A stretch of 64,000 bases of DNA, from NCBI GenBank assembly GCA_014871385.1, contig CM026421.1, positions 10,987,128 to 11,051,127 on the forward strand, given 5' to 3'. This document shows positions 19,044-59,207 of the stretch, piece after piece. Positions within the stretch are counted from its first letter, which is position 1, and the number at the start of each line of letters is the position of its first letter. The stretch comes from Ceratodon purpureus. Taxonomy: Eukaryota; Streptophyta; Bryopsida; Pseudoditrichales; Ditrichaceae. Under the pieces are notes generated by a model, which saw nothing but the letters and a program-made list of their open reading frames with translations, was not told the DNA's origin and did not search any database. The translations under genes were made by a program, and so were the position numbers.

Positions 19044-19304
19044 ATGCCCCACGATCTATGGACACCTACACCCATATTCATCCAAAATCACAATCTTCAT
19101 CCCTCAAAAAAAACAACAACAACAACAACAACAACCACCACCAATAAATCCACAATATTCCAAAAAAATCCCAAAAGAAAAACAAATACACCATCCAAAA
19201 AACACAAACACCAATCACTCCAACACAAATTACACAAAACACATAATCACATCATAAACCAAAAAATACTCTTCTATAACACATACATACCCCCACAAAA
19301 CCAT

Positions 19305-19940: not shown

Positions 19941-19977
19941 CCCCCCCCCACCCCCCCCCCCCCCCCCCCCCCCCCCC
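19941..19977 (+). repeat. poly-C tract (C9-A-C27) inside ORF2
   Basis: Nine C, one A, then twenty-seven C. The frame of the 2A-containing segment enters this tract and the APE endonuclease leaves it in another frame. A homopolymer this long invites replication slippage and sequencing error, so the frame change may not be biological. Confidence 0.85.
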
Positions 19978-25900: not shown

Positions 25901-26357
25901 AGTACCAACTTGGCTTATCACATGTCATTGCCAAGGACGATGCTATTGCAACGCAAGACTAAAACCCGACATACTATGTATACAAGGTCAACCTCATCTA
26001 TCTGATCCCCCACAATTCCCACACCCATCTACAATAATCCAATACATAGAATTTACATTTTGCCATGACAGATTCAGTCCAGACAAAGTCACTGAAAAAA
26101 TAGCAAAATATGAAGAACTCATACAACAAATTCAAGATGAGGGCTGGAACACAGCACCCATAATCATACTCACAGCAGGCCCTCGTGGTGGAATACACTT
26201 ACCCTCTATAAACATACTTAAAAATAAATTAAAAATCCCATCAAAAGCAATCAAACAATGCATGATTAAAATACACAAAATTGCGGTCAAATATTTGTGC
26301 CACATCATACTAAACAAAAGAAGATTAGAAAATAACCAACCAACAATTGATGATTAA

Positions 26358-36000: not shown

Positions 36001-36480
36001 GGACTAGTTTATAATTTTTTGTCACTGTCATACCTTGACAAAAGTCAATATTGTAATATCCGCTTAATCCTATTGAGTGAATTTTAGCATAATGGGGTAG
36101 AATTTAGTTTAGGTAGATATATGACGGAAACTACTGATTGATGTCAATATGCATTCTTTATGAATTACCGAGGCAAGCCCAAATTTGACGCTCTAGGCAA
36201 ATTTTGCTTTTGTAGTTACTACTTGATAAAGTTAGAGACATTGTTGGCTTCAACAAAAAAACAAAAAAAAATGTATAGAAAGTTTGTTTTTATTGTATGA
36301 TTATTTTTTACTCCATATAATTGAGAGGTATGAATGAACTTATAGTATCGTTGTATTTGGTAGATAGGAACTGGGTGGTCTCTATAGTTAAATAAAACTA
36401 GTTTCTACCATCATAGCATCTTCAAAAACTAGTTTTTCTTGAATTTGGAAACCATCAAACCCAATGTAGATCGCGTTACG
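36001..36480. other. AT-rich DNA before the GC-rich 5' region of gene A
   Basis: No coding sequence or repeat is seen. Confidence 0.5.
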
Positions 36481-38127
36481 TTATCGACCCCCCCTCCAAC
36501 CCCAAAAATTAGCAATGTCAGGGAAGGAGGGGCAGCCCGCGAAAAAACGGCGGGGACGGGCCCGCCGGGTCATGTGGTTTGACCGGGGCCCGCGCCGGTG
36601 GTCCACCCGTCCCGGCCCCACCGCCTTGACCGGGTCGGAGCTGGCGGACCCGTCCCTTTCTCCCCAGCCCGGGTTTGGGTTCTTGGATGTGACGGGCTGG
36701 TGTTTAGGGTTTTCATCCCTCATTCATCTGCCTTGTGCTGCATTAGAGTTTCGGTCGTGGGTTTGGAACCTGAGTGTAGTGCGCTGCCTCGGGCTGTGGC
36801 GAGGTTTCGAGGTTTGGGTGTAGGTTTTCTTCACGTAGTATTGTTAGGGGGAGTCGATGGCGCACAAGGCCGAGGGTCTCTTCAGAGCTCCGGACTAGAA
36901 GTGAGGGAAAGAGGCCGAGGGCGACGTCGTCGAATTGAGGTTAGTGGATGCTGGGCTTGGAATTCCGACTTCAAAAAATTTAGGGTTTTCAGGTACATTT
37001 GAGTTGCTCATACAAAAATTGAGGCATTGTGTTATTGTTTTTGGTTGAGGGTTTACGGGTGTTTATTTATCGCACTGAAGCAAGTGCTGGGTCACTGCTC
37101 GAATGTACTCCGTAGTAGTGTGATCTTGGATGCTGGAATGCGCGGGTTCAGTTGAGTTTAGCACTGGTTGGTTCAGGGTTGTTGAGGGTGGAGCTAGGTG
37201 TGAATGTGATCGTGCGTGTGGGCGGTCGTTTGACAGTGTGGTACCATGTTTAGGTGTTGGGAGAGGTGCCAAGCACAAGGGAGCTGGAAGAGCTGCTGGA
37301 CGAAGAGTCGAGGTATGAAGCTTTGACGCGTTCTATGGAATGGCGGTTTAGGGTTGGGTTGTGGTGTGTTCTGGGTTTTGTGGCATGTGATGGTTGAATG
37401 GATGGGTGGGATAGTATGAACTGGTGGGGCAGTTTTGGTGGGTTCAGGGTGGAGTGGTCGGGATAATGGGTGTGGCATAGTGGCGGGCACTGATTGAATT
37501 GATGTGAGTTGATACATGGGACTGCAGGGTGGAGTTGCATGACGAGAAGCTGGTCTTGGAGACGCAGGAGTTGGCAGACAGTGCAACATGCGTTGAAGGA
37601 GGGCGACAGTTATGCGAACGTTGAGAGGCTCCTGGGGTGCGTGTTGTTTTCCACGTTTGCATGTGGTGTGGAGGCTACGGGGTGTTTGGGGCCAGGTGGG
37701 TTTTCATTCCCGTCCGACATGGGTGGATTGTCTTCTTGGTGGAGTGGTCGAGGTCCGAGGAGGAATATCGGTTTAGTAGATTGTTGGCAGAAGTAGGAAA
37801 CTGATTGGGTGGAATGTGAGCGACTAATTTTATAAATGCTTGGATGCGATATGGGGGGTTTAGGGGTTTTATGGTGGATGCAAGTAGACAATAGTAATGA
37901 TTTGTATACTAACCTAAGCAACTTGTGCGCTATTTCTAATGGACAGAGACTACATAGGGAAGAAACGAGGCAGTCTGTACGAGTTTAAAAACAACTGGAG
38001 CGACGGAGATGAGGACTGAGAGGAATCGTGACGGGTCGCAAGACTTGCAGGGAAGCACAGAGGGAGTGTCAAGTGAACCACTTGCAAATCCAGGTGTTGA
38101 GGGATATGGTGTCGGCATTACATGAGG
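36481..38127 (+). promoter_or_regulatory. GC-rich upstream region of Ulp1/zinc-finger gene A; promoter and unresolved 5' exons
   Basis: A CpG-rich island at 36,480-36,700 interrupts AT-rich DNA. An ATG at 36,515 opens a frame starting MSGKEGQPAKKRRGRARRV, which resembles a nuclear localisation signal and could be a first exon. The first TGTAGTGC copy of the locus is at 36,775. Several possible GTAxxx donors follow (for example 37,312). Exon links to the conserved part of gene A at about 38.13 kb could not be proven. Confidence 0.35.
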
Positions 38128-41100
38128 AGAATTTCGAAATGATGGATCCAATTCTACCTTCAAGGTTAATGAGGATCACAGGCTCATTGCGGAGCTTGGA
38201 TTGGATAGGTGGTGGGATATTGTTGTGAACGGGCCAATCGGGTTGGTAGCTGGCACGAAGGTGAAGGACCAGAATCTGTACAGGTTCACCCTAACTCAGG
38301 GTCATGCTAAGAATTGTGTGTGCTTGTTTACAGAGGAAGAGTACGAGGAGCTTGTAGTGGAAGCACATTACAAGTGCCGATATCATGTTTACCGTGCCCA
38401 TGGAAAGGAGCAGAGAAGATGGTTTTGGTGCAGGTACTGCTACGAGGATTTCTCAGATAAGAACGCTCTCTCTTACCATCGACACAAAAATTTCTGTAGA
38501 GGTTGGCAGACATTAACAGGTGGAAAACGGGGGGTGTTGAAGATGTACCCTACATTTGAGACCAGTGACACAAAATCGGTGAAGCACATACTCTTGAAGC
38601 ATGGGCTGAAGTTCCCAGAAGTTGATGGAAAACGACCCTGGGCTCCAAGACTTGGAGAGGTGGCGATTTTGGGTGGTGTGGAAGCAAAGCTGCCACGGTC
38701 ATCTTCTTTGAGGGGCTTACAGGTCGGAGGGACAGCTACAAGTGGCGGTAGACAGAGAAAGAATATCACTCGGGAGGGACCGGGGTCGCCTACAGTAAAA
38801 GACCTAGTGGAGGAACTAAAGTCGACACGTCCATCGAGGAGGCAAAAGAGAAGGATGAAGACGCCCGAAAGTTCCGAATCGGAAGACGACACTGCAGTCA
38901 CAATACAGTCCGGTACTAGTGTAGTGCGAAGGAGTCAAAGGAAGAAGCCCCCGGCTATAGACCCGAGTAGGAGAGATGGAGATTGCGAGGACGACGGAGA
39001 CCAGAGAAAAAAGGGGAAAAAACGATTGTGTAGGAAACACAATACATCAGTGTCAGAGAAGGCGCCATGTGAGTCCGAGACAGGAGGAACAGCGACCGAG
39101 AGTATACAGTTGGAGCAGTTGGACAGTGAAGGATTCGGACCTAGGGAGGCAGCTGGTCTATGCGAGTTGAACGCCGCACAAGAAGTAGGAGGGGAGGACG
39201 AAGACACCACCTTCCATGTAGTGCGAAGGAATTTAGACTTTGTGGCCGGTGAGAAAGTAGAGGTAAACAAAGAGCAGGTCCCTCTCGAGGATCTTATTGA
39301 CGTCGGTGACGGTGGGGATCTTGAAAGGGTCTGTACTCCTCGTCCAACCCCATCAGTAGCTGAGTTTAGAGGGTCTAGGAGAGACGAGGTCATTCGGGCG
39401 GCACAAAGTCGTGCAGCCCTGCTAACTATAGGTGACCTACAGGATGTAAATCCTCCTCCACAGCCACTCTCTGCGCCTGGTCTCTATCACCTTCTCATGG
39501 AAGGGCCAGTCCCGGTTGTTGACAAGGTGTTGTTAACTGCACCGGAGAAATGTATGGAAATGCTCACCGGTATGGAAGCTAGTGGGCAACTCGGGGTGAA
39601 GATTGTCCAAGCTTTGGGTCATTGGATTTAGTGGCGCATGGCGCGTGTGGTACGCTGTACTTACCCTCTGATAATAGTCTGTAGTGCGATACTTACATGA
39701 GACAATCTGTAGTGCAATATTTATATGTGACAATCTGTAGTGCGACCATTCGTGTAGTGGAAAGGGTTAGTATGTTTGTGATGTATTGACGCTATTTGGT
39801 TGTATCATCCGTGATGAGCAGGGACCAGACACCACTTGTGAGGAAGAAGAAGGAGTACAAACACTGGTTCATCGTGCAGCAAGCTGCTGGAACCTTTACG
39901 TGACCGTGCATGACAATGAGGGAAGGGTAACTGAGCTGAAGAGACTCAGTGAATTCTTGCAGTACAAGAAACAGGCTAGGGAGTATGAGGAGTATAAGGT
40001 AGCAGCAGTCCAAGAATTCAGGGAGTTATATGTACGGAAAGCATTGGAAGATTTTGAGCCTTTGGAGCGTGCCTCCATTGATGAGGAGAACGACTGGTCC
40101 TGGTCGCCTCTTTATCAAACTCTTCTGAGGGACCCCCCAATTGGCGGACCACAACGCCCTTGGAAGCACACCTCAACCGAATTGGAGGAGATCATGAGGG
40201 TCTTCGTCGAGGAGGTAGGAGAGAACAAGTCCACCTTGGAGGTAGAGTGTCCACACGTGGTGCGCGCTCTAAAGCTTTACATGAGGATGACGGAGGGGCG
40301 TGGTGTACCAGTGGCACATCCAGTTCACGGTATGACAAGGGCGAGGCTCCTGGAGATTGCGAGGGATGGAGTGGAGTCGCGGCGCCTGTCTGTATGCGCC
40401 CAAGATCTGGTTGATATTGGATTTGCATATTTTCCGTGTACCTTTGGGAAAACAAAGGAACCAACTTACACTTCTTGCTCACACATGGTCGCACTGATGG
40501 GGTTTCAAGGTTGGCGTCAGGACGTAGTGGTGTAGAAGATAGAGGATTTCATGAAGAAAATTGCTCGACGTGCTCTTGTTGATTTGTGGCGAATGCAGGA
40601 CCATAGACTCGAAGTGGCTGCGATGTGGTATACCCCACCTCCCAAGGATCCAGGTGCACTACGGCACCAATGTGAAGAGGTAAGCAATGCTGCTAAACCG
40701 AGTTGAAGTTTACATTTATGTAGTGCTGTAGTGCAGTTTAAATATCTATATATCTGGGGCTGACATGTAGTGTGTCTTTGGTTGCAATGTTAGGTGTTTT
40801 CGAGGGTGCATATGTTGAGGGAGAATATTGACCTCGGTTGGGCGATGCTCGGGTTGGAGAACCAAGAGCCACCTACAGAGACACTACGGCCATATGCAGA
40901 GAAGGTTGTGGATGCATTGACGGAGCTACATACCAAGGAGCAGGATATAGCTTTCAAGATTCTTGGGTACAATAATGAAGGTGCTCAAGAGTCATCATCG
41001 ATGTCTAGCCCTGTTAACTTGGATCATCTGGACATTCCTCAGATGTCCCAGATTGTAGGGTCGCAGTTTCAGCACCATTTGGAATGGACTCAGATTGCGG

Positions 41101-42468
41101 TCTCTCCAGATGCGATGTCAGGGGAGAGGGAGAGACGTCTTCTTTGCGAGCACATCAAGGTGCCAGCTCCAGTGGTAGTGGAGGACGGTGGTAGCCAGTG
41201 GCATCGTAAAACCCCATGCCATCTTCAGTTGAGGCTCAGACAGGGATTATCTACGTACTCAGCTACTCCTATGCGTCTACTGGATTATGATCACGGTGGG
41301 GAGACTTCGTTTCAAGACATGGCTACGGCTCTGATTGATGGGGACATCCAAGGAGCACCGTTGGGGACGACCGAGGTTCAGGTGGGAGAGGAGGGTGATC
41401 CAAACATGGATGCTACAAGCGACGCTGCTGTAGTGCATGGACCAGCTACAGCAGAGTATCACACACCTAGTAGGTAGTGTAGCCCTACAATTCTCTTGTC
41501 CGTAACTTCCTATTGCCATGTGCAAAGTATGCACTACTTCTGTCTTGTTTGCTCTTGCAAAACAGTACCTATCCCTAGCTATAGTACATGTAGTTCATGT
41601 AGCAGTTTGCTCACTGTAGCATTGTATTGGACATGGATTTTGCGACATTATAAATAAAGGGATTTTTATCATTGCAGTTTACTCAATATGTCAAAGGAAC
41701 GAATCTCTCTAGAAGGTGGCCAAGAGAGTGGAGGATACTTGGACTTCTCTTTTGGCGGAGAGAAGATCAGGCTGACCTTGGAGCCAGACTTGGATATCCT
41801 TGATTGTTGTGGCATGGGGTTGAGTCTGTCATTGATGGATTGGTTTGCAGCCTGGTTTAGTGGAGATATCCCTCCTGCCACGCTTATTTGCAAGACAGAG
41901 TTTGCAGTGTCCTTGAGGGCCCTTACTAATTGCTCTGTCTCGGCACAGACACTACATGGATTCTATGAGACAAACACTTATACTGCCGAATTTAGGGGCA
42001 AGACTTTGTTCATTCCTGTATTTGACTGTAGGCATTGGAGTTTGGCGGTGATTTCAGATGAGGGCTTCTTCAAGTTTGATTCTGGTTACTACACCAATCC
42101 CAATTTTCACGGGCCACAACGTCTTCATGAAGCAATGGCCAAAGTGTGGTGCATGGCGAATGGGCACGGTCCGGGTACAACTGAATGGAAGCGAGCCGCA
42201 TCTATAAAGTCTTGGGTCCATGCCAGTTGTCCACAGCAACCTGATGACTGGACATGCGGATTTTATGTGGCCTGCTACATAGTGATGTTGACTAACTATC
42301 TGAAGCGGACCACCGCAGATGAGAGGATCTGGGAGGAAGCTGTAAGTAAAGTGCACATTGTGGTGTTCGAATAAATAGTCTGTTGTAGCGAATGTACTGC
42401 TGTAGTGGTTGTAATATTGTGCTGGTTGTAGTGCTGCAGTGGTTGTAGTGCTGCAGTGGTTGTAGTGC
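36775..42468 (+). repeat. TGTAGTGC octamer array over gene A (12 exact copies, one orientation)
   Basis: Exact copies start at 36775, 38920, 39217, 39680, 39708, 39736, 40719, 40727, 41429, 42427, 42444 and 42461. All are in plus orientation, in exons, introns and the 3' part. One-mismatch copies (TGTAGTGG, TGTAGTGT) occur beside them. By chance about 0.1 copy per strand would be expected in 6 kb. A local cluster at 42,420-42,500 repeats about every 17 bases. Confidence 0.85.
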
Positions 42469-42721
42469 GGTAGTAGAGTTGTTGTAGTGTTATATTATGA
42501 GTAATATGGGTTCAAGAGGAGGATATATGAATTCTGTTTGACATCAAAGGGAATGGTGGAACGATGTGCAGATTTCGGAGTGTTTTGATCACAACGAGGT
42601 GTTAGCGTTACGGAATGCATTGAAGAACGCTATAGTATCTGCACTACGTTGTGGGATGGCGGGTCCCTACAAATGTGAAGTTTCCGTAGGGTTGTATGGT
42701 GACCACGTTGGAAGCCCTTGA
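38128..42721 (+). pseudogene. gene A: C2HC zinc-finger and Ulp1/C48-type protease protein, interrupted by two TAG codons
   Basis: Exons were set by alignment to gene B. They are about 38,128-39,649; 39,822-40,679; 40,794-41,473; 41,678-42,341; 42,572-42,721. Phases are 0, 0, 2 and 0, exactly as in B. The first block has a CX2CX12HX5C finger (FWCRYCYEDFS...HKNFC) and a charged, disordered region. The second and third hold conserved helical domains of unknown function (CPHVVRALKLYMR; MLGLENQEPP). The fourth is a Ulp1-like cysteine protease: HWSL (His116 counted from Met 41,688), KFDSG (Asp131), QQPDDWTC (Gln183/184, Cys190). All catalytic residues are kept. TAG at 39,629 and at 40,533 sit at aligned sense positions in B. 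Such proteases process SUMO-type conjugates and are carried by several plant transposons. Without readthrough no full protein forms. Confidence 0.7.
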
Positions 42722-44460
42722 TCGTTGTAGGACACTCGGTGCTGAACGTAGTTTTGTAAATTATTTTTCCAGCCATTTTCTGGCATCGGCTTTGTATTTT
42801 TGGATGTATATTTCAAATGAAATTTCACTTAAAAAGTCATGGATCTGCGACATGTCTCAAGTGTTTTCTAGGGTGCTCAGCTTGAGAAGGACTACTGAAT
42901 ATTTACAAGATAAAAGAATAACGCAAACATATCAAAAGATAAATAAATTAAGGCGAATTTTTTAAGGAAATTAAGAAATAAATAAAATAATAAAATAATA
43001 TTTATTCACATAGTAACTCAAAAACATATGTATCTCTATAAATCAAAGATTCAAGGGAACCAAATAAATTACACATGAGGTATTCCAGTGGAAAAATTTA
43101 ATCACAGACTTAAACGAATTAATAGAACAAAACAAAAAGGAAAATAGGAAATTCATTGCGATGGAAGAACATCATGTGCCTCCATGAAGAAGATAGAAAT
43201 AAAATAATAATTAATGAAGCAATTTAAATAAAAGTAAAAATAACATTCAAGGTGAAACGATCAAGAGATTGAATTGTTGAAGTAAAGAAAATTAAAGGGA
43301 TACGTGAAAAGGGAAAATAAATTTAAGATGAAACACTTAAAAAGAATGGGAAAAATAAAAATAATAAGATTGAAATCAAAGGATTAATGTGGGGAAAGAG
43401 TGGAGTCATAGAGTGAAAAAATAAATACAAAGGGGAAAAAAAAGGAAAAGAATTGAAATAAGAAATGAAATGCAAGCAAAGACAAAAATATAAGGAAGAT
43501 GTGAAAAGGGAAAATAAATTTAAGATGAAACACTTAAAAAGAATGGGAAAAATAAAAATAATAAGATTGAAATCAAAGGATTAATGTGGGGAAAGAGTGG
43601 AGTCATAGAGTGAAAAAATAAATACAAAGGGGAAAAAAAAGGAAAAGAATTGAAATAAGAAATGAAATGCAAGCAAAGACAAAAATATAAGGAAGATGTG
43701 AAAAGGGAAAATAAATTTAAGATGAAATACTTTAAGAGCATAAGATTAATTGTATATGATGCATTAAGGAATTAGGATCTGGAATAAAACGATAAAGGTT
43801 TTAAGGAAACGATAATGAAAAATAAATGTTAAAATAGAATTGGGTAATTCAATACAATTACGAGATACATTATTGTATCAGTCATTTGCAAATGGGATCG
43901 TGAAGAATCATGAATTATATATAATCAAGAATGTCATTCTTTGTGGGGCCAGGGTGGAAAATGAACGTGAAAGTTCAGTTGCACGAATTGAAGTAATGTA
44001 TATGGAACAAATGATTTGAAGGGACACGAAAATGATGTAGGCTAGGGTGAACGATTATATTCATGAGATATAAGTTTGAATAACTAGAAAAAACAAAATT
44101 AATTAGGCAAATGAAAAAATAAAATCTGAGGAGTAATAAAGTTCCTGAATATAACTATCAATCCTAGGTGATATATAAGGATTATAAATAATTTCATATA
44201 TGTGAGAAATAATATGGTGATACGGATATTCAATAAAATGTTACATGCGAATATGAAGTTTTGAAGATCATCGATAGTCAATGAATGTATTCATGCGATT
44301 TAATATCCACATAATGAGTTGTTTAGTGGTACATAAAGATTGTATATGTCCTCCATCCGACATGGTTTTATTAAACCATGGGTGGAATAGAGGAGACCGT
44401 ACAAATCGGGGGTTTCCAGACAACGTAGGTAGAACTCTGACTTCAGAAAACAACATAAAG
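42722..44460. other. AT-rich spacer between genes A and B, containing a tandem repeat
   Basis: No coding sequence is seen. The A/G-rich plus strand here contrasts with surrounding DNA. A 197-bp tandem repeat occupies 43,304-43,730. Confidence 0.5.
43304..43730. repeat. 197-bp tandem repeat, about 2.2 copies
   Basis: The text starting GTGAAAAGGGAAAATAAATT recurs at 43,304, 43,501 and 43,698, so the period is 197 bp both times. Copies 1 and 2 look nearly identical; the third is partial and begins to diverge (AAATACTTT for AAACACTTA). High identity implies a recent duplication or an assembly effect. Confidence 0.9.
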
Positions 44461-45180
44461 GTAACCCCTTGTTTAAGTGGCTGACTCTTCGTACAGGAGT
44501 TCTCCTCCGTGGCCTTGACTTGTGCTGCTCAGCCGCTGTTCTACAAGGAGGCCTGCTCTGGTCTTCGAGAGGAGGTCCCGTGGTTCAAATCGTGATCTTC
44601 CATCGCAGAAGTCGTTCCGTCTTTATTGAGGGACAGAGCTCGTGTGGGGTGCGACCTGGACGTGATCCTACAATTCTGGGTTCTGGGTTCTTCATGTAGC
44701 ATAGTTTCAGAGGGGAGTGAGGTGCGGCAATGGTTGTGGTAGAGTATAGTGTTGGAGTTGAGACGGCAGCATGGAGTCAGGTGAGAGATGAGGATTCAAG
44801 AAACCAGGGTTAGGGTTTAGTACGCCTTCATGTTTTCTTTGGATGTAGCTTTTTTTCCTTGAGATGGGTGGTCGGGTTCAGGTCTGTAAAATGCTGGATT
44901 CCGACATGTAAAGACAACAGCAAGAATTGGATAGTAGATTTTAGTGAATGCTCAATAGAGGTGGAAGTTGCCCCTTCTTTTAATGCTGTTTAGGGTTATA
45001 GGTGAATATTGGGATTCTCTTTGATTAGAACTGTAGGTGGTTGGAGAGGCTTGCCAGGACGTTGTTTTCACGATTTATGCTACATAGGGTAGGTGGTATT
45101 TTGTTCAATCAGTATACAACTTCTCTGTGCATGGTCACACGTTCTGAATGTTTATCGCTTCTCGTTTTGGTGGGTTGTAG
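44461..45180 (+). promoter_or_regulatory. upstream region of gene B, promoter and unresolved 5' exons
   Basis: Base composition rises in GC from about 44,470. Short open frames (for example 44,469-44,699) show no motif. Gene B needs its promoter, and probably its first exon, here. No TGTAGTGC copy was found in this stretch. Confidence 0.3.
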
Positions 45181-48100
45181 ATAATAGCCGGAGATTAACG
45201 AGGGCATCGTCGCAGCACGTTCCTATAGGTGACACGAGTATTGAGGCCGCGATTGGACCATTGCTGGGGCTAAGGGATGCGGCGAAGGAAGGCAGTGATG
45301 CTTCTACGGACCTAGACGAGCAGTTTAAAGAAGGTTCTTCACAGGGTCAACTCAGAGAGGCCAGGAGCTATAGCGGAGGTACAGCTCACAGTAGACAACG
45401 ATTGCCTCCAGCCGTAAGTTCAGGTTCGATATCTTTCCTTGGTGTTGGAGTGACAGGACCCAGAATTCTTTTTCTCGAGGACGAGAAATTAATAATCAAT
45501 GAGGATAAGCGTCTTATAGACGGGCTGGGACTGGAGACCTGGAAGATGCTACTAAGGAACGGACCACAAGGTCTACAAGAGGTACGTCACGTTCTGCCAA
45601 AGGAGTTTATCTAATTCGACCTAGTTCGCATTAAATGTTGGCCACTACAATGTTGTAGTTCTCAGAATCGCTGCGTTACACATGGCAGGGGTATACGGTT
45701 GGAGGCGAGAGGGTATACAGAGCTGAGTTAAAGCAGGGTAGAGTACCATGCGCATGTCTTCATACTGAGCGGGAATACAAAGATCTTGTAGTCGAGGCGC
45801 ACTACACGTGCCGTTATCACTTTTACGAGAACCCACATGGCCACGAAAAGCGTTATTACTACTGGTGTAAGTACTGTCACGAGGACTTTAGTGATATGAA
45901 TGCAATTTCTTATCATCGTTATAAGGATCAATGTGACAAGTGGAAGGAAGTTGGTTCTGGAGTCTTGAAAATGTATCCTACGTTTACTCAGAGTGAACAA
46001 CACGTGCTTAAAGGAATCTTACAGGAAGCTGGTTTGACATTCCCAGAGAAAGAGGGTAGCCGACCCTGGAATCCGAGGGTACAGCTACCACGTGTAGTGC
46101 AGCCAATAACCAAAAAGGACAGGGACTTTGTAAAGGAAGTGAGACTAGGGACAGGTAAGGATGCAGATAATTTCAATGTCAGGCCACGGAAGGATGGATC
46201 TGGCACTACAGGACAGCGCCAGGTGACAATGGTTTACAAGAAAAAGGACTGCGCTGTAAAAGAGTCAACTGAGAGGGCAAAGACGTCGGTAGTGCAGGAG
46301 AAGTTCCAGAGGTGTAGCAAGTCTGTAGTGCAGTACGAGGAGGAAGGTTCTGATTCAGACGAGCCGCATTTCTGGGTTAGATATTCCAAACACAACCACG
46401 TCGGGGCACCGTCTGTTTCTCCTCAAAGAAAGGGCCATCTTGAAGGAGTCGTCAAAAAGAAGAGTACTTTGTTGGCTGGAGCTAGGAAGAGAAAAAAGGA
46501 CCAGGAGGCTGCGGAGGAAGTGCTCGCACCGGTTAGAGAGAATCCTAACTCCACCAATTTCCAGTCAGAATATCACGAGGACGTTTCTCCGTTTGATTCC
46601 TCTACACAGGTTGGGTCGGGAAAAGGAGCCCTTCATTCCGATGTAGTGCATGAAGATGAGCCAATTTCGACTTATACGTTTCCCGTTGATGCTACTCGAG
46701 AGGGCGTACTGGAAGAAGCCGAACGTTACGCAGCTTCTTTAACAGTGGAAAACACATTTCCAAACATTGGCCCACCTCCCCAGGTTAAGAGTTGCCCAGG
46801 GTTGTATCACCTGATCCAGGAATTATCGGTCAGCACTATCATTGACCGCAAACTCTTACACAACCATGAAGAATGCATGATTGAGCTTCGGAGACTAGAA
46901 GCAAGAGACGAGCTAGGAGGGCTCATATTTGCCTCTAGAGGCTCATGGATAGCATGGAAAGAATCACAGGTACATGTGTGTACAATCCTCCTTGTATTCT
47001 ACCTGCATCTCAATTCTTTTATCTCACACTCTCATAATAAGACAATGAATGTCTTCAATCTCCTTTTCTATTATGTTTCCAGGTCCAGGGGGAATCTGAG
47101 GCACGACAAAAAGAGGACGTGAACTTTGTTATGATGTCTGTGAAGCCCTGGAATCCTTACATTGAGTTAGTAAACCACGACGGAAGAAACTCCGAACTTA
47201 CCAAGCTAGAGCACTACCTGCAGTACCTCAAGGATAAGGCTATGTATGTCTCCAAACGACTCAATGCGGAGATTGCACTACAGGACCGGCGGAAGTCACA
47301 TGTTCTGGGCCAGCTTAAAGTGTACGACTGCGAAAGGGAGATGCGATTGGAGGACAGGGATTGGGGTTGGTCCCCCATGTTTCGGATATTGTGCAAAGAA
47401 GGATCTCCTGCACTTCCGCCACGTCCATGGTCTCATACGCAGGAAGAGCTAGACCGTATACTTGCTGCACTACATGCAGATGACAAGATGGAGCCTATGT
47501 CGCTAGAGCTTGATTGTCCTCATATTGTCCGTGCCCTAAAGTTGTACGCCCGTGTCTCCCTTGGACGGCGCTCCCCAATTTGCCATCCAGTTACAGGCAT
47601 GACAAGAGCAAATATACTTGCTATAGCAAAGGACAAAGTAGAGTCAAAACGACTCTCAGCATGTGCCCAAGATGTTGTTGACATTGGCTGGGTATATTTC
47701 CCATGCATTTTAGGAGGTATCTGTGCTCCACTTCGTCGTTGTTGGGGGGATATGCTGGGATTGATGGGCTTTGATGGATGGAACCAGGATGACGTACTAC
47801 ACTTGATAGAACAGTTTCTTAACCGTGTTGCACGCCGAGCAATATTGGATCTGCACAGATCTGGAAGAAGTTCTGCTGAGCTTGCGGCTATGTGGTGGGT
47901 TCGTGGTCCAGACGATCCTACAACTCTGCGCCTTCATTGCAATGAGGTAAAAACATCCAGACAGGACATTTGGTCATCATTTCCGTAGCAGAACTAAATA
48001 ATCCCTTCTCTGCATACGTATATGTAAATAGGACATGAAGTGATAATTGATCTTGCACTACAGGTGATGTTGAAGATGTTATGTATACGCGAGGACGTGG

Positions 48101-49849
48101 ACTTTGGATGGTCGATGCTGGGGCTTGACAATCAACAACCAGTCCCAGAGGATTTGAAGGAGCCCGTAAATCGCGTGGTACAGTTGCTACTGGAGCTTCG
48201 TGAGAAGGAGCTTCACCGCACTTTCACACAGATGGGTATCGTGCAACAAGTTGAAACGCCTCCCTCACCACCCTTCCTTACTGCAAATGTCATGCCGCTT
48301 GAAGCAGTGGATCCAAGTCACCAGACTCTGGGCGAACATGCTGGTCAAGCGCAGACCACTTCTTTGGAAGTGATTTCATTAGTGGTCGCCGAAACGCTCT
48401 CAGACATGTCTGAGACGGTTCATCTAGAGGACGACCGGGCCGTGCGGGAGAGAGAACTTCTTTCCTTACACATAAGAAACCCAACGCCGCCAATCATGCG
48501 GACTGGGTCAGGCTGGTTTAGGAAGACTCCAACACATATTGATTTTAGGTTAGGTCCGTGCCGTGTGCGGTCAATGCTCTCCCCTATTCGTTCATTGAAA
48601 CTGGTTTCATCAAATGACCCCTGCGAGGAGCAGACTTCTATGAATTTGGCGGAGGAGACCCCACCCGGGAGTACAGCAATAGCACTGTTCATGTCGCCGA
48701 TGGATTCAGCTACCGTAAATATTAGGTAGTATATGTCACTGCTCTACACATGTACACTTCTAGATCCAAATAATACTCTAATGGCTATAGAACCCTAGAG
48801 CTATACCCTGACTCTTTCAAACCCAGTCTTTATTCTGCACTACACGTTATTACTTTGCACTACATGTTGTTGCTACACTTAGATACGGTGTTCGTTTTGT
48901 AATGCAGTGCCTACGGTCTGATGATGGACCGTATACGACTGGCGCATGACGACACTACTAGAGGACGGTTGGAGTTCCTTTTCGATTCAGGCAGTACTAT
49001 TTTACGCCTAATACCGGACATGGAAGCCCTGGATTCCCATGAAGGATTGCTCACTACGCCTCTCATGGATTTCTTTTGTCTTTGGTTTCAGACATACCTT
49101 CCTGACGAGGTTTTGCTATGCAATTCTCTAATAGCAACTAGCCTATGTACGCTCATCAAAGAAGGTGACTCAACTAATGCACTACAAAGATTTTATAGTA
49201 AGAAATCTGGGTTTAAACGGCTGAAGGGTAGGACGATCATCGTTCCCATTGTCGATAGCACACACTGGAGCTTAGCTATACTGTCGACCTCTGGATTCCT
49301 GAAGTTTGACTCAGGTGTGACAGATTCCACTACCTTCCACGGCGGTAATAAACTACATGAATATCTCGGCAAGCTATGGTGTATGGTAATAGGCGAGTCA
49401 GAAGGATCGCCCACATGGAATGCATGTTCCAACACAAAAGCATGGACCCAAGTCCGTTGCTCTAAACAGCGTGATGGTTGGTCATGTGGATACTACGTCA
49501 TGTGCTTTGTTATCACATACATGGCGATCCTTGGAAAGGAAACTGAAATTGACTGGACAGCAGAGGTCAGTGCATCTATCCCTTTTGAGATATCTATTTA
49601 GGTGTAGCACTACTTCCTGTTCATATACCGCATGCTGCCGCATATCTCCGTGAGAGAGAGGAATCCCATATGGCAAAACACAGAGTATTACTTAGTTAAC
49701 GTGGCATTATGTTGATGCAGATGTCCGATGTATTTGACTTTGAGGATGTGTTGGACATGAAACGGAAGCTTAAGAACGCAGTGACCGAGGCCATGGTCAC
49801 AGGTGCTGTGGACGGACTATCGTGCCGGATTACAGCCGAGGTCAACTAA
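45181..49849 (+). CDS. gene B: C2HC zinc-finger and Ulp1/C48-type protease protein, intact paralog of gene A
   Basis: Exons: about 45,181-45,581; 45,659-46,969; 47,083-47,946; 48,064-48,725; 48,908-49,565; 49,721-49,849 (TAA). Lengths keep frame throughout, with junction phases 0, 0, 0, 2 and 0, and every intron is GT-AG. Exon 2 carries the C2HC finger (YWCKYCHEDFS...RYKDQC). A basic, disordered stretch follows, then a PGLYHLIQEL segment. Exon 3 has CPHIVRALKLYARV and MLGLMGFDGWNQDD; exon 4 has GWSMLGLDNQQPVPE. Exon 5 is the Ulp1-like protease, with HWSLAI (His115 from Met 48,921), KFDSG (Asp130), KQRDGWSCGYY (Gln183, Cys189). Exon 6 encodes a short conserved tail (LKNAV). The set suggests a nuclear DNA-binding deSUMOylase-like protein, possibly encoded by a mobile or selfish locus; no transposase is visible. 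The 5' start is unresolved. Confidence 0.75.
45799..49186. repeat. TGTAGTGC octamer array over gene B (11 exact copies, both orientations)
   Basis: Plus copies start at 46093, 46324 and 46642. Reverse-complement copies (GCACTACA) start at 45799, 46203, 47275, 47467, 48055, 48837, 48857 and 49179. From 47 kb on all copies are reversed. Several lie inside exons (for example 47275, 47467, 49179) and one overlaps the intron acceptor at 48,063. Confidence 0.85.
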
Positions 49850-50504
49850 GAAGCACCAGTGGATTTTAGCATAGTACGTCCCGTAGGTAGAGACTTGGGT
49901 CCTGCACGTCAGAAGTCCAACCGTGTAGCCGCTTGAAAAGGACATAGTACAGAAAGCATCCATGCAATAGAAATTATAATTGGTTTAGTATATTTTAAAT
50001 ACGTAGTTTCTTCTAGGAGTGCAGGAGGATTCAAGTCTCCATCCTCATGTCCTAAGCATTTGTAACCGTTAGTGCCAAGTAGCAATACATGTGCTGGTTT
50101 CATAGCCAAATTTACGGACATTCGCTCTACATGTGGTACAACAGCGTCAGACTAATATTTGTACTACATGTATTACATAACTAAGATATTGAAATAAACA
50201 ATTTATAAAGGCCATCGACCTGAAATCTCACAGTTCTTGACTTGGATTTTTGATACTTTAGTAAAATAAACAGCAAATTGTATTCCTTCCTGGATGGACG
50301 CTATAAAGGGCATGTTAGGTAGTCTAAACAGTAACTGGACGGGATGGAAAATTAATATGTACAGTCGATGGCTGATGATGTGTCCTGTATTTGCCCTAAA
50401 TCTAGTGTTATCTAAATGTTGCCTTCTTAGGAGTGACGACCTTATGCTTCAGTTTATAGCATGTCTCAGTTTACATGGCATGTGGAAAGTGATTTCCACG
50501 GTTG
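49850..50504. other. spacer between gene B and the first Ty3 element
   Basis: AT-rich, with no supported gene. The CCGG-rich text of the next element begins at about 50,510. Confidence 0.5.
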
Positions 50505-50860
50505 ACACACCGGAATACTAATTCCGGTAGGAAAATGATAAAAAAATTAAAAATTTTATGTTAGAAATACGGAAGTACTAAGCCTATAAGTAAAACAACC
50601 GGTTAAGCCGGTCGGCTGAATAAATAAGTGACCGGAAGGCCAGCCGGGTGAGATCCGGTCGTCTGCGGTGGAGGAGAGACGGGTACAGTCCATATGACAG
50701 AGCCCTGACCCGGCAGACTTAAGGATAACCACCAAAAGGTACAACGCACACGGGGATAATGGCTGCAACCATTAAAACGCCGCCCGTCGCGACCGTCCAA
50801 TGATGAGGGGCTACGACCGTCCGACATGATGAGCTACGAACGGGTGGGCGCGAGGGCAGG

Positions 50861-50867
50861 TATAAAA
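50861..50867 (+). promoter_or_regulatory. TATA box upstream of the 621-codon ORF
   Basis: TATAAAA in GGGCAGGTATAAAAGGAGG, about 200 bp before the ATG at 51,070, in a GC-rich setting. The spacing suits an LTR (U3/R) promoter or an ordinary RNA polymerase II promoter. Confidence 0.55.
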
Positions 50868-51069
50868 GGAGGAAGAACCGCCATGCTCCTCCTTTCTCTT
50901 TGTCATTTTGTGGCACGACGGGTCCTTGCGCTCTAAGGCGGAGGGCGCAGTTAGGGTTAGACGGTAGGAGAGAGACGGTGAGACGGAAGTGTTTCCGTTA
51001 GGCGAGAGATTGTGGTGAGGATCGTGCGTGCAGGTGTTACCGGAGTGACGGAGAGGAGGACTTAGCAGA

Positions 51070-52935
51070 ATGGGTAGGAAAGGGAAGGAACCGGCGGCGG
51101 AAGGACAGTCGTTCAGGGTACAACGGGTAATGCCGTTGATACCGGCCGGCGAGAAGGAGAAGGAGCTCCTCCGGACCGCCTTAGAGTCTATGAGATGTGA
51201 GGTCCTACTGGACAAGGCATGGGGTTGGAAGCTTGCCCTTCCGGCCCAGGAGATCCTCGTCAAGAATCCCGAGAATCGAGGAACCATTCGGGGAGAGCCG
51301 GATCAATGGACGGCACAACTCTGGAGGGAGACGTATGGTTTCAAGAACTCCGGCGAGGTCTCGACGCCGGAGCCCCGGGACTTCGTACACCGGTATCTCA
51401 AGGGGGCCGGAGACCCGAGAGAAGGATGGGGGCTAGATGACATTGCGGATCCGGAGGCCCGGAGAGTCGTAGGGTTTATGAACCCTATTTTCCATCCGGA
51501 AAAGCCCAAACGGATCACCAACAAGTGGGCGTCCGTTTTCATTGGGGCCATGATCGGTGAATTCACGGTGGACTGGGGGGTCATGATGAAGACGATAATC
51601 GACCGACAGGTGGCCAATCTCCGGAAGACCAAGAAGCAGGCCACCTGCCTTCCGTCTTTCCTCATTCACCTCTACCGTACTAAGGGGCTGTTGAGTGCTG
51701 AGGAGGTCCGGGAGTACGATGAGCTCTTAAGCTATCAGCAGTTCGCTGAGCCGGAAGAAGTGTCCGACCAGGACGACGATGATGATGTTATTGAGGTCTC
51801 CCCCACGCCGGCTAAGAGACCCCGTCCTAGCCCGGAAAAGGGACAGCCATCCGGATCACCTCGGACTCCCGTACCGGCCAAGCGAACCCTGAACACGGAG
51901 ATCCAACAGCCCACCGGACCACCGGAGCACACCGGAGATCCGTACCAGGACTTAGTTAACCTATCGGAGCAGGCGACGACGTATGCCCGGTTCTTACAGT
52001 CGACTAGGAAGGCGGAGGGCCGGTTGGCTAGGGAGGTAATGATCCTTACGGGTTCGGACCGGTTGGAGGATTGCCTGAGTATTCTTCGCAAGCACCGGGA
52101 CTTGGCCGGTCTCCAGGAGAAGCACATGGACCGGCTGGCGAAGTACCGGGAGACGAATCGGAAGCTCGAGGAGGAGGTGCGTGATGCCCGGAAAGATTTC
52201 AATGACGCCCGTGACCGGTCAGTCGAGGCCATCCGGTCGGTCGCCGAGATCAAGGCCACTTTAGCTCTTCCGGTAGATGTGGCCAATCAGTGCGCCGTTT
52301 ACCAGGCCTTCCTGACCCGTCAACCGGATCCGACTATGAAGAATATTATAAAGTTCATGCACGACCGGACGCAGGTGATGAGGGACACATGGATGATGAT
52401 GAAGAACCTGGTGGAAGTCCTCGGTTACGCAGAGGCCGGTCCGTCATCAGGGCCACCGGCAAATCAAGAGGATCCCAGACCACCGTCTCCAACCAGGGAA
52501 CCGGCACCGGTGCCACCTCCAGCCTCTCCGATACGGTCGGCCATCCGGCCCGCCCAACAGGAGGTAGGACACCCGCTGGAGGATCCTATTCCGGACACCT
52601 TGAGCAGTCTGCACACTCTACCCAACTTGGATGGAGTCGAGACTGTTAACCCCGGAAACATTCCTTTGGGACCGGACCAGAGACCACCACCGGTAGATTT
52701 TATACCGGTACAGGGATCTCCGGAAACGCTCCAGGTGGATCTCAGCGCAGTTCCGGTGGCGGCACGATCTCCATCCCCGGCAGTTCAAGTAGACCGATCC
52801 CAGAAGTCCAGCGAACCGTCAGCATCGGAGGCTCCGGAAGAAGGCCCCTCGTTGAAGAAACTGAAGCGGCCACAGAAGAAGGAACGGTTGGACGGAACCC
52901 GGCACAGTCCCCGGCTAGATAAGCACAAGGAGTAG
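51070..52935 (+). CDS. 621-aa extra ORF of retroelement 1, plant-transposon-type protein of unknown function
   Basis: An uninterrupted frame from ATG to TAG. The first 200 residues are globular, with RITNKWASVFIGAMIGEFTV and TCLPSFLIHLYRTKGLL. They recall the so-called plant transposon protein domain found beside gag-pol in plant elements, though I cannot verify this. An acidic run follows (DQDDDDDVIEVSPTPAKRPR), then a predicted coiled coil (about residues 320-400, KLEEEVRDARKDFNDARDRS). The end is a Pro/Ser-rich tail with basic KKLKRPQKKER. It lies 5' of the primer-binding site, an odd place for an internal ORF. It could be inside a long LTR, or a captured gene. The open frame suggests recent activity. 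Confidence 0.65.
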   Translation: MGRKGKEPAAEGQSFRVQRVMPLIPAGEKEKELLRTALESMRCEVLLDKAWGWKLALPAQEILVKNPENRGTIRGEPDQWTAQLWRETYGFKNSGEVSTPEPRDFVHRYLKGAGDPREGWGLDDIADPEARRVVGFMNPIFHPEKPKRITNKWASVFIGAMIGEFTVDWGVMMKTIIDRQVANLRKTKKQATCLPSFLIHLYRTKGLLSAEEVREYDELLSYQQFAEPEEVSDQDDDDDVIEVSPTPAKRPRPSPEKGQPSGSPRTPVPAKRTLNTEIQQPTGPPEHTGDPYQDLVNLSEQATTYARFLQSTRKAEGRLAREVMILTGSDRLEDCLSILRKHRDLAGLQEKHMDRLAKYRETNRKLEEEVRDARKDFNDARDRSVEAIRSVAEIKATLALPVDVANQCAVYQAFLTRQPDPTMKNIIKFMHDRTQVMRDTWMMMKNLVEVLGYAEAGPSSGPPANQEDPRPPSPTREPAPVPPPASPIRSAIRPAQQEVGHPLEDPIPDTLSSLHTLPNLDGVETVNPGNIPLGPDQRPPPVDFIPVQGSPETLQVDLSAVPVAARSPSPAVQVDRSQKSSEPSASEAPEEGPSLKKLKRPQKKERLDGTRHSPRLDKHKE

Positions 52936-54001
52936 GTTTTGGGATAAGGACCGGATAAAATGGCAGCGACTAACGATGGGGCTCCAGTGCACCCGGCTGC
53001 CAATCCGGATAGATAGCGGCAGTAACTAGGAATAGAAGGCGGCTACCGGTCCGGGATTCCCGGATCCAAGATCCGGAATTTCTGGATCTCGGTGGACCAC
53101 TTGGTCGCTTTGGGAACCGATAGGTTTTAGTATTTAAGTTAGACGTTTTTCCAAGGCAGGGGCCTTGTTTTTGTACGCCGTTTTGTTGTTGCAATTGAGA
53201 ATATACTTTTGGATTTGTTGTGTCAACCGGCTGCTGACGGGTCCGTTGCCGTATGGTTTGTGGTTCTATTGTCTTCAGTAGTGTTCCGGAGGAGTGTTGA
53301 ACAGTAGGAAGGTCAGGAGAGCGCCCGGAGAGACTGGGGAGGGGTCAAGCGTCGAGTGTTGACGGTTTCCAGTCCCGGAAGGAGCCCGTAGGGAAGGAGA
53401 GACGTATTGCAGCAGGGCTGGTAGTCTCAAGGACACGGAGAGCCGTGTGTACACCGGGATCCGGAAACGGACCGGTCGCTTCCTGTAGATGGGATAAAAG
53501 CCGGATACCCTACTGCGAACCAATCCGGAAGGAAGATAGTATGGTAGAATACCGTGCAGCCGTAAGGTAATGTCATTGTAGTATGATTTCCGTATCCGTA
53601 ACCGGCACTGAGTAGTTATCCGGACCGGTCCCTAGCCGTACGGAAGGATTATTACTCCACTTCTCGGGTGGTAGATAGGAACAGTGGGGTGTCCAGCCAC
53701 TATAAGTCACGGGACGGTGGAAAATCCAGCCACTTGAAAGGATAGACGGATCAGTGGGAACCGGCCACTAGTCTAAAAAGCCGGAAAATAGGAACGAGGC
53801 AAAAACTACCGGATTTGTCCAACCGTCTGTAAGACGGTGTACGGTCGGACACGGGTGGTGATTTCCGTTAAAATCTAAAAGGAAGAAAACTATAGGTCTT
53901 CGTGGGAACGAACACGGAGTGGTTTACTTTGGAGGGTGTTTAGTGTCAATTAAGTGCCTTCCGGAGGAATACTGATACCACGTCGTGCTACATGTGATTT
54001 T
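52936..54001 (+). other. CCGG-rich non-coding stretch before the primer-binding site
   Basis: No coding frame is seen. The text has the same CCGG-rich vocabulary and local repeats (CCGGCCACT / CAGCCACT lines near 53,690-53,790). It probably represents the R/U5 part of the LTR plus leader. A CA suitable as LTR end lies in GTGCTACA a few bases before the primer-binding site. Confidence 0.4.
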
Positions 54002-54019
54002 TGGCGCCGCTGCCGGGGA
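54002..54019 (+). promoter_or_regulatory. primer-binding site, complementary to tRNA-Asp 3' end
   Basis: TGGCGCCGCTGCCGGGGA differs by one base from the TGGCGCCGTTGCCGGGGA used by plant Athila/Tat-type Ty3 elements. It is 68 bases before the gag ATG. Confidence 0.8.
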
Positions 54020-54086
54020 TCTATATGATTTTCTTTCTCCGGATTTCTACGGTTGTCACTAACCCAAGTCAGGTTGTAGAAAACGC

Positions 54087-55652
54087 ATGAATCCGAATTC
54101 TGAGCCGGAAGGAGTACGGAGGTCTAGTAGAAAGAAGAAGGGTGATCAGGAGACGGAAGCCAGACCATTCGTCACTACTAGAGCAGAATTCACTGAAGAC
54201 ACAGATCAAGAGATAGCCGGGACTTCCGGATCCGGAGGTCAGGGTGGGACAGTACCACCCGGGCCGGTGGCCGGAGGACCGGTAGCGGGTCTTCCTATGG
54301 CCCGGACGTTCTCCAGACTGAAGTATCGGAAGTTCAGGGGCGATGGCCGGGAGGACGTGGACGAATGGCTAAGCGAGTTCAACGCCACGGCTGCTGCCAA
54401 CCAAGAGGACGAAGCAATCAAGTTACGGTTGTTCCAGGGATTACTCAAGAAGGAGGTACTCCAGTGGTACCAGGAGGAACCGGACAACGTGCGAAGGAGT
54501 TGGGGTTTGCTATCCGATGCCTTCCGGAGGGCCTTCCGGGAGGTAGGAGGAGAAGCCCGCACATTGGGAAAACTTAGTAAAATCCGGATGGAGCCGGAAG
54601 AGTCAGTCCGCCGGTACGGACAGAGGGTTAGGAGTTTAATTCATAAAATAAGTCCCGGAATTGCAAACAGTATCCAGGTAGAATGGTACGTCGCTGGGTT
54701 ACCCGACCGGATGGGGTTCCAAGTAAGGCAGACCCGGCCACAGACTTTACCGGAGGCCATGGAGGCCGCCCAGAACTATGAGAACTCCAAGCAGTCCATA
54801 CGGCAGTACCGTAAGGCAGGGAAGACCTCTAGACGTCTTCGAAAGGTCCGGAGGAACCGGGATTCTAGTTCAGAATCCAGTGGATCCAGCCCCGAAGATA
54901 GTTCGGAAACCGGAAGCAGCAGCAGTGAGGAGGATCCCTCACGACGGAAGGCGTCAGGTAGCAAGGGCTACCGGAAAGACAAAGAACGGACGATAGTCCG
55001 AGTAAAGGAGGAATACCCATCGGAGAAACGGATGATCAAAGATCTGGTGAACAGCATTGAAGAACTGAAAGTCCAGATGGCGGAAGAGAAGAAAGCACGG
55101 AAGGCGGTGCCCACCGTCCGGAACAACGTGTGGTGCACCAACTGCGGAAAGCCGGAACATTACAACCGGGAATGCCCACACGGAGCGCCCAAGAGAGTGC
55201 AGTTTGTGGATGAGGAGGGGTCAGTATTCTTTGCGGAACCTGCTTATGAAGAGGAGGAAGTGGAGATGCTACCGGTTTACCAGGTAAACCCGGCCTATGG
55301 CCGTGGACGGATGATACAGCCGGTTATCAGACCTCGACCCGGAATGGGCTATCCATCCGGTGGACATCCGGCCCCGCCGACACGACCACCCGTCTCAGTG
55401 GAACGGCAGTTTGGATGCTGTTATATTTGTGGAGAAGCCGGTCATTATGCTAACAATTGTCCCCACCGAGGAGGTCAAGGCGCACCGTTGGAACTTCCGT
55501 GTCAAAACTGTGGTCAGTACGGCCATAAGTCACCCCAATGCCAACAACCGGTTAGACCTAGGGCTATCTATAAGCAAGTGGAAGAACCTCCACGGGAGCG
55601 TACCGGGCTCAACTACGGTCACAAAGACGGGGTAGAGAATCCGCCAAGTTGA
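54087..55652 (+). CDS. gag: gag polyprotein of retroelement 1
   Basis: 521 residues from ATG 54,087 to TGA 55,650. A Ty3 capsid-type region (VDEWLSEFNATAAANQEDEA, LLKKEVLQWYQEEPDNVRRS) is followed by a Ser/Arg-rich linker. Three CX2CX4HX4C zinc knuckles lie at about residues 350 (CTNCGKPEHYNREC), 445 (CYICGEAGHYANNC) and 472 (CQNCGQYGHKSPQC). Gag packages the genomic RNA in virus-like particles. The stop is TGA followed by CGG, and pol continues in the same frame, so Pol may be made by stop-codon readthrough. Confidence 0.85.
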   Translation: MNPNSEPEGVRRSSRKKKGDQETEARPFVTTRAEFTEDTDQEIAGTSGSGGQGGTVPPGPVAGGPVAGLPMARTFSRLKYRKFRGDGREDVDEWLSEFNATAAANQEDEAIKLRLFQGLLKKEVLQWYQEEPDNVRRSWGLLSDAFRRAFREVGGEARTLGKLSKIRMEPEESVRRYGQRVRSLIHKISPGIANSIQVEWYVAGLPDRMGFQVRQTRPQTLPEAMEAAQNYENSKQSIRQYRKAGKTSRRLRKVRRNRDSSSESSGSSPEDSSETGSSSSEEDPSRRKASGSKGYRKDKERTIVRVKEEYPSEKRMIKDLVNSIEELKVQMAEEKKARKAVPTVRNNVWCTNCGKPEHYNRECPHGAPKRVQFVDEEGSVFFAEPAYEEEEVEMLPVYQVNPAYGRGRMIQPVIRPRPGMGYPSGGHPAPPTRPPVSVERQFGCCYICGEAGHYANNCPHRGGQGAPLELPCQNCGQYGHKSPQCQQPVRPRAIYKQVEEPPRERTGLNYGHKDGVENPPS

Positions 55653-58517: not shown

Positions 58518-59122
58518 GTATAAATCATAGCGTTAGAAGCTTAGAAGGGACTTCTGGTTACTCGTAGCTGTGAGATTAGTATTACAAAGCAGACTCTTAG
58601 CCAGGACCTTAAGTCGTTTTGCCTTCTCTTTACTTCACATGTTTCAGTGTATACACGGATCATGGATGTTGTTGCTCCTCTTTTTACATACTGAATACAC
58701 TAAGACTTGCTTCTATACTGTTTTTGCTTGGACTCATGGATTGCATGGTACACCATGATACACACCTCATAATCCTCACCCCTGACTCTCCATAGTGATA
58801 TTCCAAAAGCTCTCCACCTCTTTTACAGACTCCACGGCTTACTTGGTTACTGTTCTCAGACTCCAACCTCGGGTGTCGGTTAACGGTCCCAACCTTGGGA
58901 CTTCAAGGGTGTCTGTTGGTTTACCGCACCTGCCCCTCTTCTGGTGACTCATTTCCGTCCTCAATGACTTTCCCTCTCCCAGACGCTACCCACCTGTTTC
59001 TTTCTCTCCAACTCCTCATACTAAGGGCCTGACTACCATGATCGCACTCGGTTTGGGCTGCTTCCCTTATTCCCTTGGCTTCCCTGGATCTCAGACCTCC
59101 ATCAAGACAATCCCAGCTAACA
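58337..59122 (+). repeat. 5' LTR of retroelement 2 (786 bp)
   Basis: It begins TGTTAC exactly where the host pol frame loses similarity and ends CTAACA, giving TGTTA...TAACA inverted ends. The primer-binding site follows three bases later. TATA-like and CT-rich stretches are present, but the transcription start was not fixed. Confidence 0.75.
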
Positions 59123-59125
59123 TTT

Positions 59126-59143
59126 TGGCGACCATGCTGGGGA
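59126..59143 (+). promoter_or_regulatory. primer-binding site of retroelement 2
   Basis: TGGCGACCATGCTGGGGA starts with TGG, complementary to a tRNA CCA end, three bases after the LTR. The tRNA species was not identified; it differs from the tRNA-Asp site of element 1. Confidence 0.6.
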
Positions 59144-59207
59144 TGGTAAGTTGAGATCCGCAAATAAATCTCCACGCCAAGGAACGCCCTGACACGACCC
59201 TGTCACC

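Follow-up and report, generated by a model that had tools for sequence, protein, structure and literature searches.

The question raised by one locus of the moss Ceratodon purpureus is why a single octamer, TGTAGTGC, recurs across two neighboring paralogous genes that combine a zinc finger with an Ulp1-like domain, and what might read it. The locus lies in a 64,000-nucleotide stretch of assembly GCA_014871385.1 (contig CM026421.1, here C1), the whole of which is called the window; position 1 of the window corresponds to C1:10987128, the window covers C1:10987128-11051127, and positions above 64000 in window numbering fall outside it. The two genes, A and B, together with a third gene, C, for a Mutator-like element (MULE) transposase, make up one Mutator-like element of ∼19.7 kb. 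A DNA-binding factor that the element itself encodes may well dock at the motif, a reading to which we assign a probability of ∼0.55.

An exact-word search found 23 copies of TGTAGTGC within positions 36775-49186. An earlier note on this DNA had assigned 12 copies to gene A, each on the plus strand, and 11 to gene B, of which 3 were plus and 8 minus; these counts, places and strands were all exact. The copies, and the small arrays that some of them form, are distributed as follows.

36775..42468, plus strand: 12 copies of TGTAGTGC over gene A, its introns and flanks (exact-word count)
45799..49186, both strands: 11 copies of TGTAGTGC over gene B, three plus and eight minus (exact-word count)
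39678..39743, plus strand: mini-array of three motif copies with a 28-bp period, in an intron of gene A
40719/40727, plus strand: adjacent motif pair, forming a mini-array
42393..42474, plus strand: 17-bp tandem array with three exact motif copies, 3′ of the Ulp1 exon of gene A

Over gene A, the plus-strand copies start at 36775, 38920, 39217, 39680, 39708, 39736, 40719, 40727, 41429, 42427, 42444 and 42461. Over gene B, plus-strand copies lie at 46093, 46324 and 46642 and minus-strand copies at 45799, 46203, 47275, 47467, 48055, 48837, 48857 and 49179. The strand switch near 47 kb that had been described is not clean, two minus-strand copies (45799 and 46203) lying left of 47 kb. A single further copy in the window, at 9609, had also been claimed; a second one outside the two genes was found at 34191 on the minus strand. 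The motif had been placed in exons, introns and flanks, where it was indeed seen across genes A and B and, in addition, across the transposase gene.

Comparison with background models placed TGTAGTGC first among the region's 8-mers for over-representation: 23 copies were observed where a fourth-order Markov model of the window predicts 0.84 (Poisson p ∼1e-24, before correction). A first-order simulation gave 0.3 expected copies and a maximum of 5 over 200 runs, so that the very low chance expectation first suggested is borne out at 0.3-0.8 copies across 36775-49186. The 14-nt flanks of the sites could not be aligned with one another, save in the three mini-arrays, which hold 8 of the 23 sites; a longer dispersed repeat as the source of the motif was therefore ruled out.

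The whole genome contains 11,527 occurrences of TGTAGTGC in 362.5 Mb (151 contigs), and the pattern read backwards, as a control, occurs 8,887 times. A similar density genome-wide, which had been raised as the contrary case, was not what was found: the motif occurs once per 31 kb at large and once per 0.6 kb inside the element. When the neighborhood was extended beyond the window by 100 kb leftward and 120 kb rightward (284 kb in all), 39 copies were counted, comprising the 23 already described, a third cluster of 10 at 73193-78526 (window numbering) in the third gene, right of the window, and 6 scattered ones. The ∼19.7-kb element thus accounts for 33 copies, and the remaining 264 kb of the neighborhood for 6. 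The unit proposed earlier, a pair of paralogous genes, was correct in that both paralogues carry the motif but was too small, the real unit being the three-gene element. The motif also fills the transposase gene, in which tblastn detected nothing homologous to A or B; it therefore characterizes the element as a whole, not a single gene family. The element and its main landmarks are listed below.

36473..64000 (continuing to 78829, window numbering): window part of the Mutator-like element, from copy alignment; ∼19.7 kb without the long terminal repeat (LTR) insertion
36464..36472: left copy of the 9-bp target-site duplication ATGTAGATC; the right copy is at 78830-78838 (window numbering, outside the window)
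50481..64000 (ending at 73150, window numbering), plus strand: LTR retroelement within the element, with LTRs of ∼3.5 kb that are 99.8% identical and a target-site duplication TGGCA
43288..43750: tandem repeat with a 197-bp unit, free of the motif, in the interval that separates gene A from gene B

The left boundary at 36473 was set by alignment with copies designated C12, C10 and C7, and the right boundary at 78829 by alignment with C12 and C10; the right end of C7 was not found within the 600 bp added. Each of the three copies read at both ends has its own 9-bp duplication, ATGTAGATC in the window, CTTTTCTTT in C12 and CACAACTTG in C10, and these duplications together with the MULE transposase support the Mutator-type affiliation that had been proposed. 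The element begins GCGTTA... and ends ...AACGCGACCC. The sole similarity between the ends is a short imperfect GCGTTA, and a blastn comparison of the leftmost 560 bp with the rightmost 3 kb revealed no terminal inverted repeat above 14 bp. The string CACTA within GCACTACA could suggest a CACTA element, an identity that was rejected because the ends, the 9-bp duplications and the MULE-type transposase disagree with it. The LTR retroelement, a recent insertion 22.7 kb long, splits the window copy, and an apparent second retroelement is nested in it, marked by a 786-bp repeat that is 100% identical (∼58337-59122 and ∼67327-68112). A ∼184-bp tandem array likewise lies between the A and B genes of a more distant copy, C1b, and two tRNA-like sequences, noted by eye, lie directly right of the element end at 78870-79026 (window numbering).

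Protein searches of the whole genome gave 136 matches to exon 2 of gene B; a transposase exon gave 134, of which many at the weaker end probably belong to other MULEs. Besides the window copy, two close copies (C12 and C10), one middle copy (C7), one distant copy (C1b) and 1.7 kb of another (L034) were read. C12 and C10 are 99% identical to the window copy over the parts read, and these three were counted as one. The layout was tallied among the matches listed, which cover 86 of the 134 transposase rows and 88 of the 136 A/B rows. An A/B match lies within 35 kb of 49 of the 56 transposase matches with at least 56% identity, and 21 of these 49 have two or more A/B matches nearby; the other 7 of the 56 have none, and none of the 30 weaker transposase matches has one within the same distance. 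Because all 49 paired matches are convergent, transcription of A and B toward the transposase is the family's usual layout. In the same tally, 59 of the 88 A/B matches and 39 of the 56 related transposase matches fall on a contig of >109 Mb, C6, which we suppose might be a sex chromosome.

Motif content was found to persist well beyond the closest copies. C12 carries 33 copies of TGTAGTGC, C10 carries 29 in the 16.7 kb read, and C7, which represents a subfamily at 45-83% protein identity across exons, carries 26. Over the 12.1 kb aligned, C12 and C7 share 78% DNA identity (22% diverged). The p-values of this comparison are guides only, because neighboring positions are not independent: C7 carries the identical octamer at 15 of the 19 C12 sites that could be aligned, the figure for aligned 8-mers in general being 17.6% (p ∼1e-8); on an approximate exon model, 9 of 10 coding sites (background 18.9%, p 3e-6) and 6 of 9 non-coding sites (background 11.1%, p 1e-4) are kept; and in gene B, where the amino acid is unchanged, the codon itself is retained in 15 of 16 cases within sites and in 556 of 812 elsewhere (p 0.02). 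These data show that the two subfamilies have retained the motif more often than background sequence, whether the DNA is coding or not. Each of the four C12 sites without a match differs from its C7 counterpart by a single base, and 5 of the 20 C7 sites that align depart from the motif by one to four bases in C12, so that sites have been both gained and lost between the two subfamilies. A further 14 C12 sites fall in DNA that can no longer be aligned to C7.

Absence of enrichment at other family members, the second contrary case named in the earlier note, was borne out only in part: C12, C10 and C7 are enriched, and the exception is C1b, where like exons share 38-54% protein identity. C1b has only 2 exact copies of TGTAGTGC but is packed with TGTNNTGC: its 15.5 kb contain 45, where 7.2 would be predicted from the DNA around it. 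An earlier exact-word search of C1b had given only weak hits. In a masked-word search that was blind to the motif, with the tandem array left out and the masks sampled, TGTNNTGCA ranked first in this copy (27 against 3.6 expected). The difference resides in the central pair: AG accounts for 33 of 50 TGTNNTGC sites in C12 and 26 of 48 in C7 yet for 2 of 45 in C1b, whose second central base is a pyrimidine (C or T) at 34 of the 45 sites. The 1.7-kb piece of L034, from another subfamily, has 5 TGTNNTGC sites against 0.8 expected, two of them with AG. These counts show that the center shifts among subfamilies while the outer triplets and the density persist. Telobox-like words are over-represented as well, namely ACCCTAAAC in C7 (7 against 0.11 expected) and AACCCTAAA in C12 (4 against 0.17 expected).

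The proteins that the element could encode were examined next to the motif, using gene models whose exon limits were set by eye and are approximate.

38126..42371, plus strand: gene A, with a C2HC zinc finger, a variable linker, a conserved helical region and an Ulp1-like (Peptidase_C48) domain; exon limits approximate
45182..49849, plus strand: gene B, a paralogue of A with a like layout; splice sites placed by eye from GT/AG

The predicted exons of gene B are ∼45182-45581, 45689-46969, 47083-47946, 48064-48725, 48908-49569 and 49721-49849. A and B share an invariant finger, WC-x-YC-x2-DFSD-x-NA-x-SYHR...C, of the C2HC type, which in both is separated from the Ulp1-like domain by a variable linker followed by a conserved region. 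The Ulp1 family model (PF02902, C48) matched gene A at 21.5 bits against a cutoff of 20.7, and its match to gene B fell below the cutoff (expect value, E, of 0.46). The two proteins are 36% identical over 225 amino acids, and H-W, F-D-S and C-G blocks are present by eye in both. The third gene, C, lies on the minus strand. Single exons of it gave nothing useful in Pfam, and only the joined exons matched the MULE transposase family (PF10551, E 4e-11, 43.7 bits against a cutoff of 27.6), together with a weak SWIM match (E 0.11).

Sites in the element differ in orientation between its halves. In C12, the best cut, at 10.3 kb, places 15 of 17 plus sites to the left and 14 of 16 minus sites to the right; in C7, a cut around 10.8 kb places 10 of 12 plus sites to the left and 12 of 14 minus sites to the right. 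At a fixed midpoint the split has p 4e-4 in C12 and 0.04 in C7, two results that are not independent because many sites are common to both copies. The core sites listed for C1b occur on both strands throughout.

The window copy also bears a possible footprint of silencing. Its private C>T changes affect 0.98% of CG, 1.01% of CHG and 0.22% of CHH sites, so that CG and CHG sites carry them at ∼4.5 times the density of CHH sites; the private changes of C12 (0.45, 0.34 and 0.15% at CG, CHG and CHH) and C10 (0.98, 0.47 and 0.13%) lean the same way. Gene A of the window copy has two in-frame stops (TAG at 39629 and 40533) and gene C one in its SWIM region, all absent from C12 and C10 at those codons. 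A fourth candidate stop, where an exon of gene C begins, is present in C12 and C10 as well and could fall outside the real exon. The bias and the stops of the window copy fit past CG and CHG methylation, as would be expected of a silenced element.

If TGTAGTGC is indeed read by an element-encoded factor, the most likely candidates are the paired zinc-finger/Ulp1 proteins A and/or B, which lead because they are the extra genes of the element and carry a finger. In such a mechanism, the A and/or B protein, with its C2HC finger and Ulp1/SUMO-protease-like domain, would read TGTAGTGC, coat the element and counter silencing by the host, perhaps by stripping SUMO from silencing factors, a speculative step that forms no part of the VANC model. 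The outcome would be expression of all three element genes. A more specific version, which we hold only tentatively and think doubtful as a whole, is an anti-silencing system that evolved independently in this moss. Here the tandem paralogues, both equipped with a single finger and a SUMO-protease domain, would recognize the TGT and TGC halves of an asymmetric site side by side, as a direct TGY repeat five bases apart, coat the element in mirrored orientation, exons included, and strip SUMO-dependent silencing; the subfamilies would have separated through changes in the two bases between the halves.

That the effect of reading the motif might be anti-silencing is suggested by analogy with the VANC anti-silencing proteins of Arabidopsis VANDAL elements, as described in the accessible parts of PMC5735166, PMC10398659 and PMC6446971. 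In those parts, VANC21 binds YAGTATTAY, which is dense in VANDAL21, and density matters (PMC5735166); VANC motifs lie mainly in non-coding tandem arrays of a single orientation (PMC5735166); and a dense short motif goes with sequence-specific loss of methylation (PMC5735166, PMC10398659). The moss element resembles VANDAL elements in uniting a MULE transposase with extra genes, in the absence of a long terminal inverted repeat from the ends compared here, and in a short motif that is highly enriched in its own element and rare elsewhere (33 copies within its 19.7 kb, 6 in the neighboring 264 kb), with related elements carrying an altered motif. It differs in the absence of a DUF1985 match from the exons scanned, in having as extra genes a tandem pair of paralogues that bear a C2HC finger, in a motif that also occupies exons and is mirrored in orientation, and in its host, a moss and not a eudicot. 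An Ulp1-bearing VANC, KIU, exists, and the available portion of a review (PMC13317346) reports sequence-specific anti-silencing for the KIU/Kaonashi group of MULEs without terminal inverted repeats and dates capture of Ulp1 to the monocot-eudicot split. The present element shares with that group an Ulp1 protease domain in a MULE accessory gene and departs from it in having two Ulp1-like genes, each with a zinc finger, in a moss. Grapevine MULE and CACTA elements bear an Ulp1-like region, and the part of PMC2528002 available makes no mention of a self-motif in them. They are likewise plant cut-and-paste elements with such a region, and unlike the CACTA ones among them the element here has a transposase of the MULE type. 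The TnpA protein of En/Spm is also element-encoded, binds subterminal 12-bp sites in both orientations in its own element and is linked to demethylation. The many short sites in both orientations are common to both systems, whereas TnpA sites crowd the ends and those described here span the whole element, exons included.

Within the open literature searched, no paper was found for TGTAGTGC as a whole word; in the parts of the matching papers available, the only match for bryophyte transposon-encoded anti-silencing was on a different subject, and the only one for moss Mutator-like elements with Ulp1 concerned Ginger transposons.

Several observations weigh against an element-encoded reader of the VANC kind. 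On the approximate exon model, 12 of the 33 C12 sites are coding and 21 non-coding, where VANC motifs are mainly non-coding; tandem arrays are few and orientation differs between the halves, where VANC motifs form same-orientation tandem arrays. Pfam matches to the finger are weak: zf-C2H2_4 reaches a best E of 0.01 and a phage zinc-binding model, fitting slightly better, one of 0.0025, each of them matching 7 of the 9 members. AlphaFold models of two exons were poor and unusable (predicted local distance difference test scores of 38 and 42), and the copies compared (C12, C10, C7, C1b and 1.7 kb of L034) are few out of 136 exon matches. DUF1985 is a feature of VANC proteins, and exon-by-exon Pfam scans of A, B and their homologues, made on single exons and not on a spliced protein, gave no match to it at E up to 1. 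The VANC connection drawn in the earlier note consequently stands by anatomy and behavior but not by homology.

Other explanations of the motif were weighed against the same data. Subterminal repeats of En/Spm and Ac serve in the assembly of transposon ends, and TGTAGTGC might similarly be bound by the transposase or an accessory protein for transposition. Such a role would suit the presence of the motif in the transposase gene, its beginning ∼300 bp from each end (36775 against 36473, and 78526 against 78829) and, at the best cut chosen, its mirrored orientation in C12. We nevertheless think it unlikely, as the motif is spread over 19 kb of gene bodies and not crowded at the ends, inner sites are conserved, the mirrored orientation is weaker at the C7 midpoint, and the core sites listed for C1b lie on both strands. 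Less likely still is that a host transcription factor binds the octamer as an enhancer for the three element genes. This would account for its presence in all three, introns and flanks included, but the center differs between two subfamilies in one genome while the outer triplets and density are kept, a change that suits a factor evolving with the element, and codons within coding sites are kept more than others (p 0.02).

Spread of a functionless word by tandem duplication or slippage is very improbable: the three small arrays, with 8 of the 23 sites in the window, speak for it, but the remaining sites have unrelated flanks, conservation exceeds background and other centers are enriched in C1b. 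Slightly less probable even than this is that peptides (VVQ, VVH or ALQ) are selected and the DNA word merely follows. All six coding plus-strand sites in genes A and B are read in the V-V frame, and VV[QHR] occurs 14 times against 2.2 in shuffles of five B-type homologues; against this, most C12 sites are non-coding and 6 of the 9 alignable ones among these are conserved, coding minus-strand sites are read in three different frames, and VV[QHR] is absent from two A-type and six exon-3 homologues. The five B-type homologues are mutually related, and their VVQ/VVH/VVR, the reading of T-GTA-GTG-C, may be a sign that other sources retain the word as well.

Elsewhere in the window, inspection by eye revealed a TIR-NBS-LRR-like gene on the minus strand (5431-9157), a PPR-like open reading frame (11214-11675) and plus-strand open reading frames resembling those of non-LTR retrotransposons (13504-26357), one of which (18819-19670) includes the 2A-like peptide CGDIESNPGP.

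So far as the accessible parts of the literature indicate, sequence-specific transposon anti-silencing has been worked out in Arabidopsis. If the docking-site reading with its anti-silencing outcome is true, a moss system with another protein architecture and a motif that survives in exons would suggest that the strategy is old or has evolved more than once. Because the family is abundant on C6, coevolution of the motif with the protein that reads it could then be traced among dozens of copies within a single genome.

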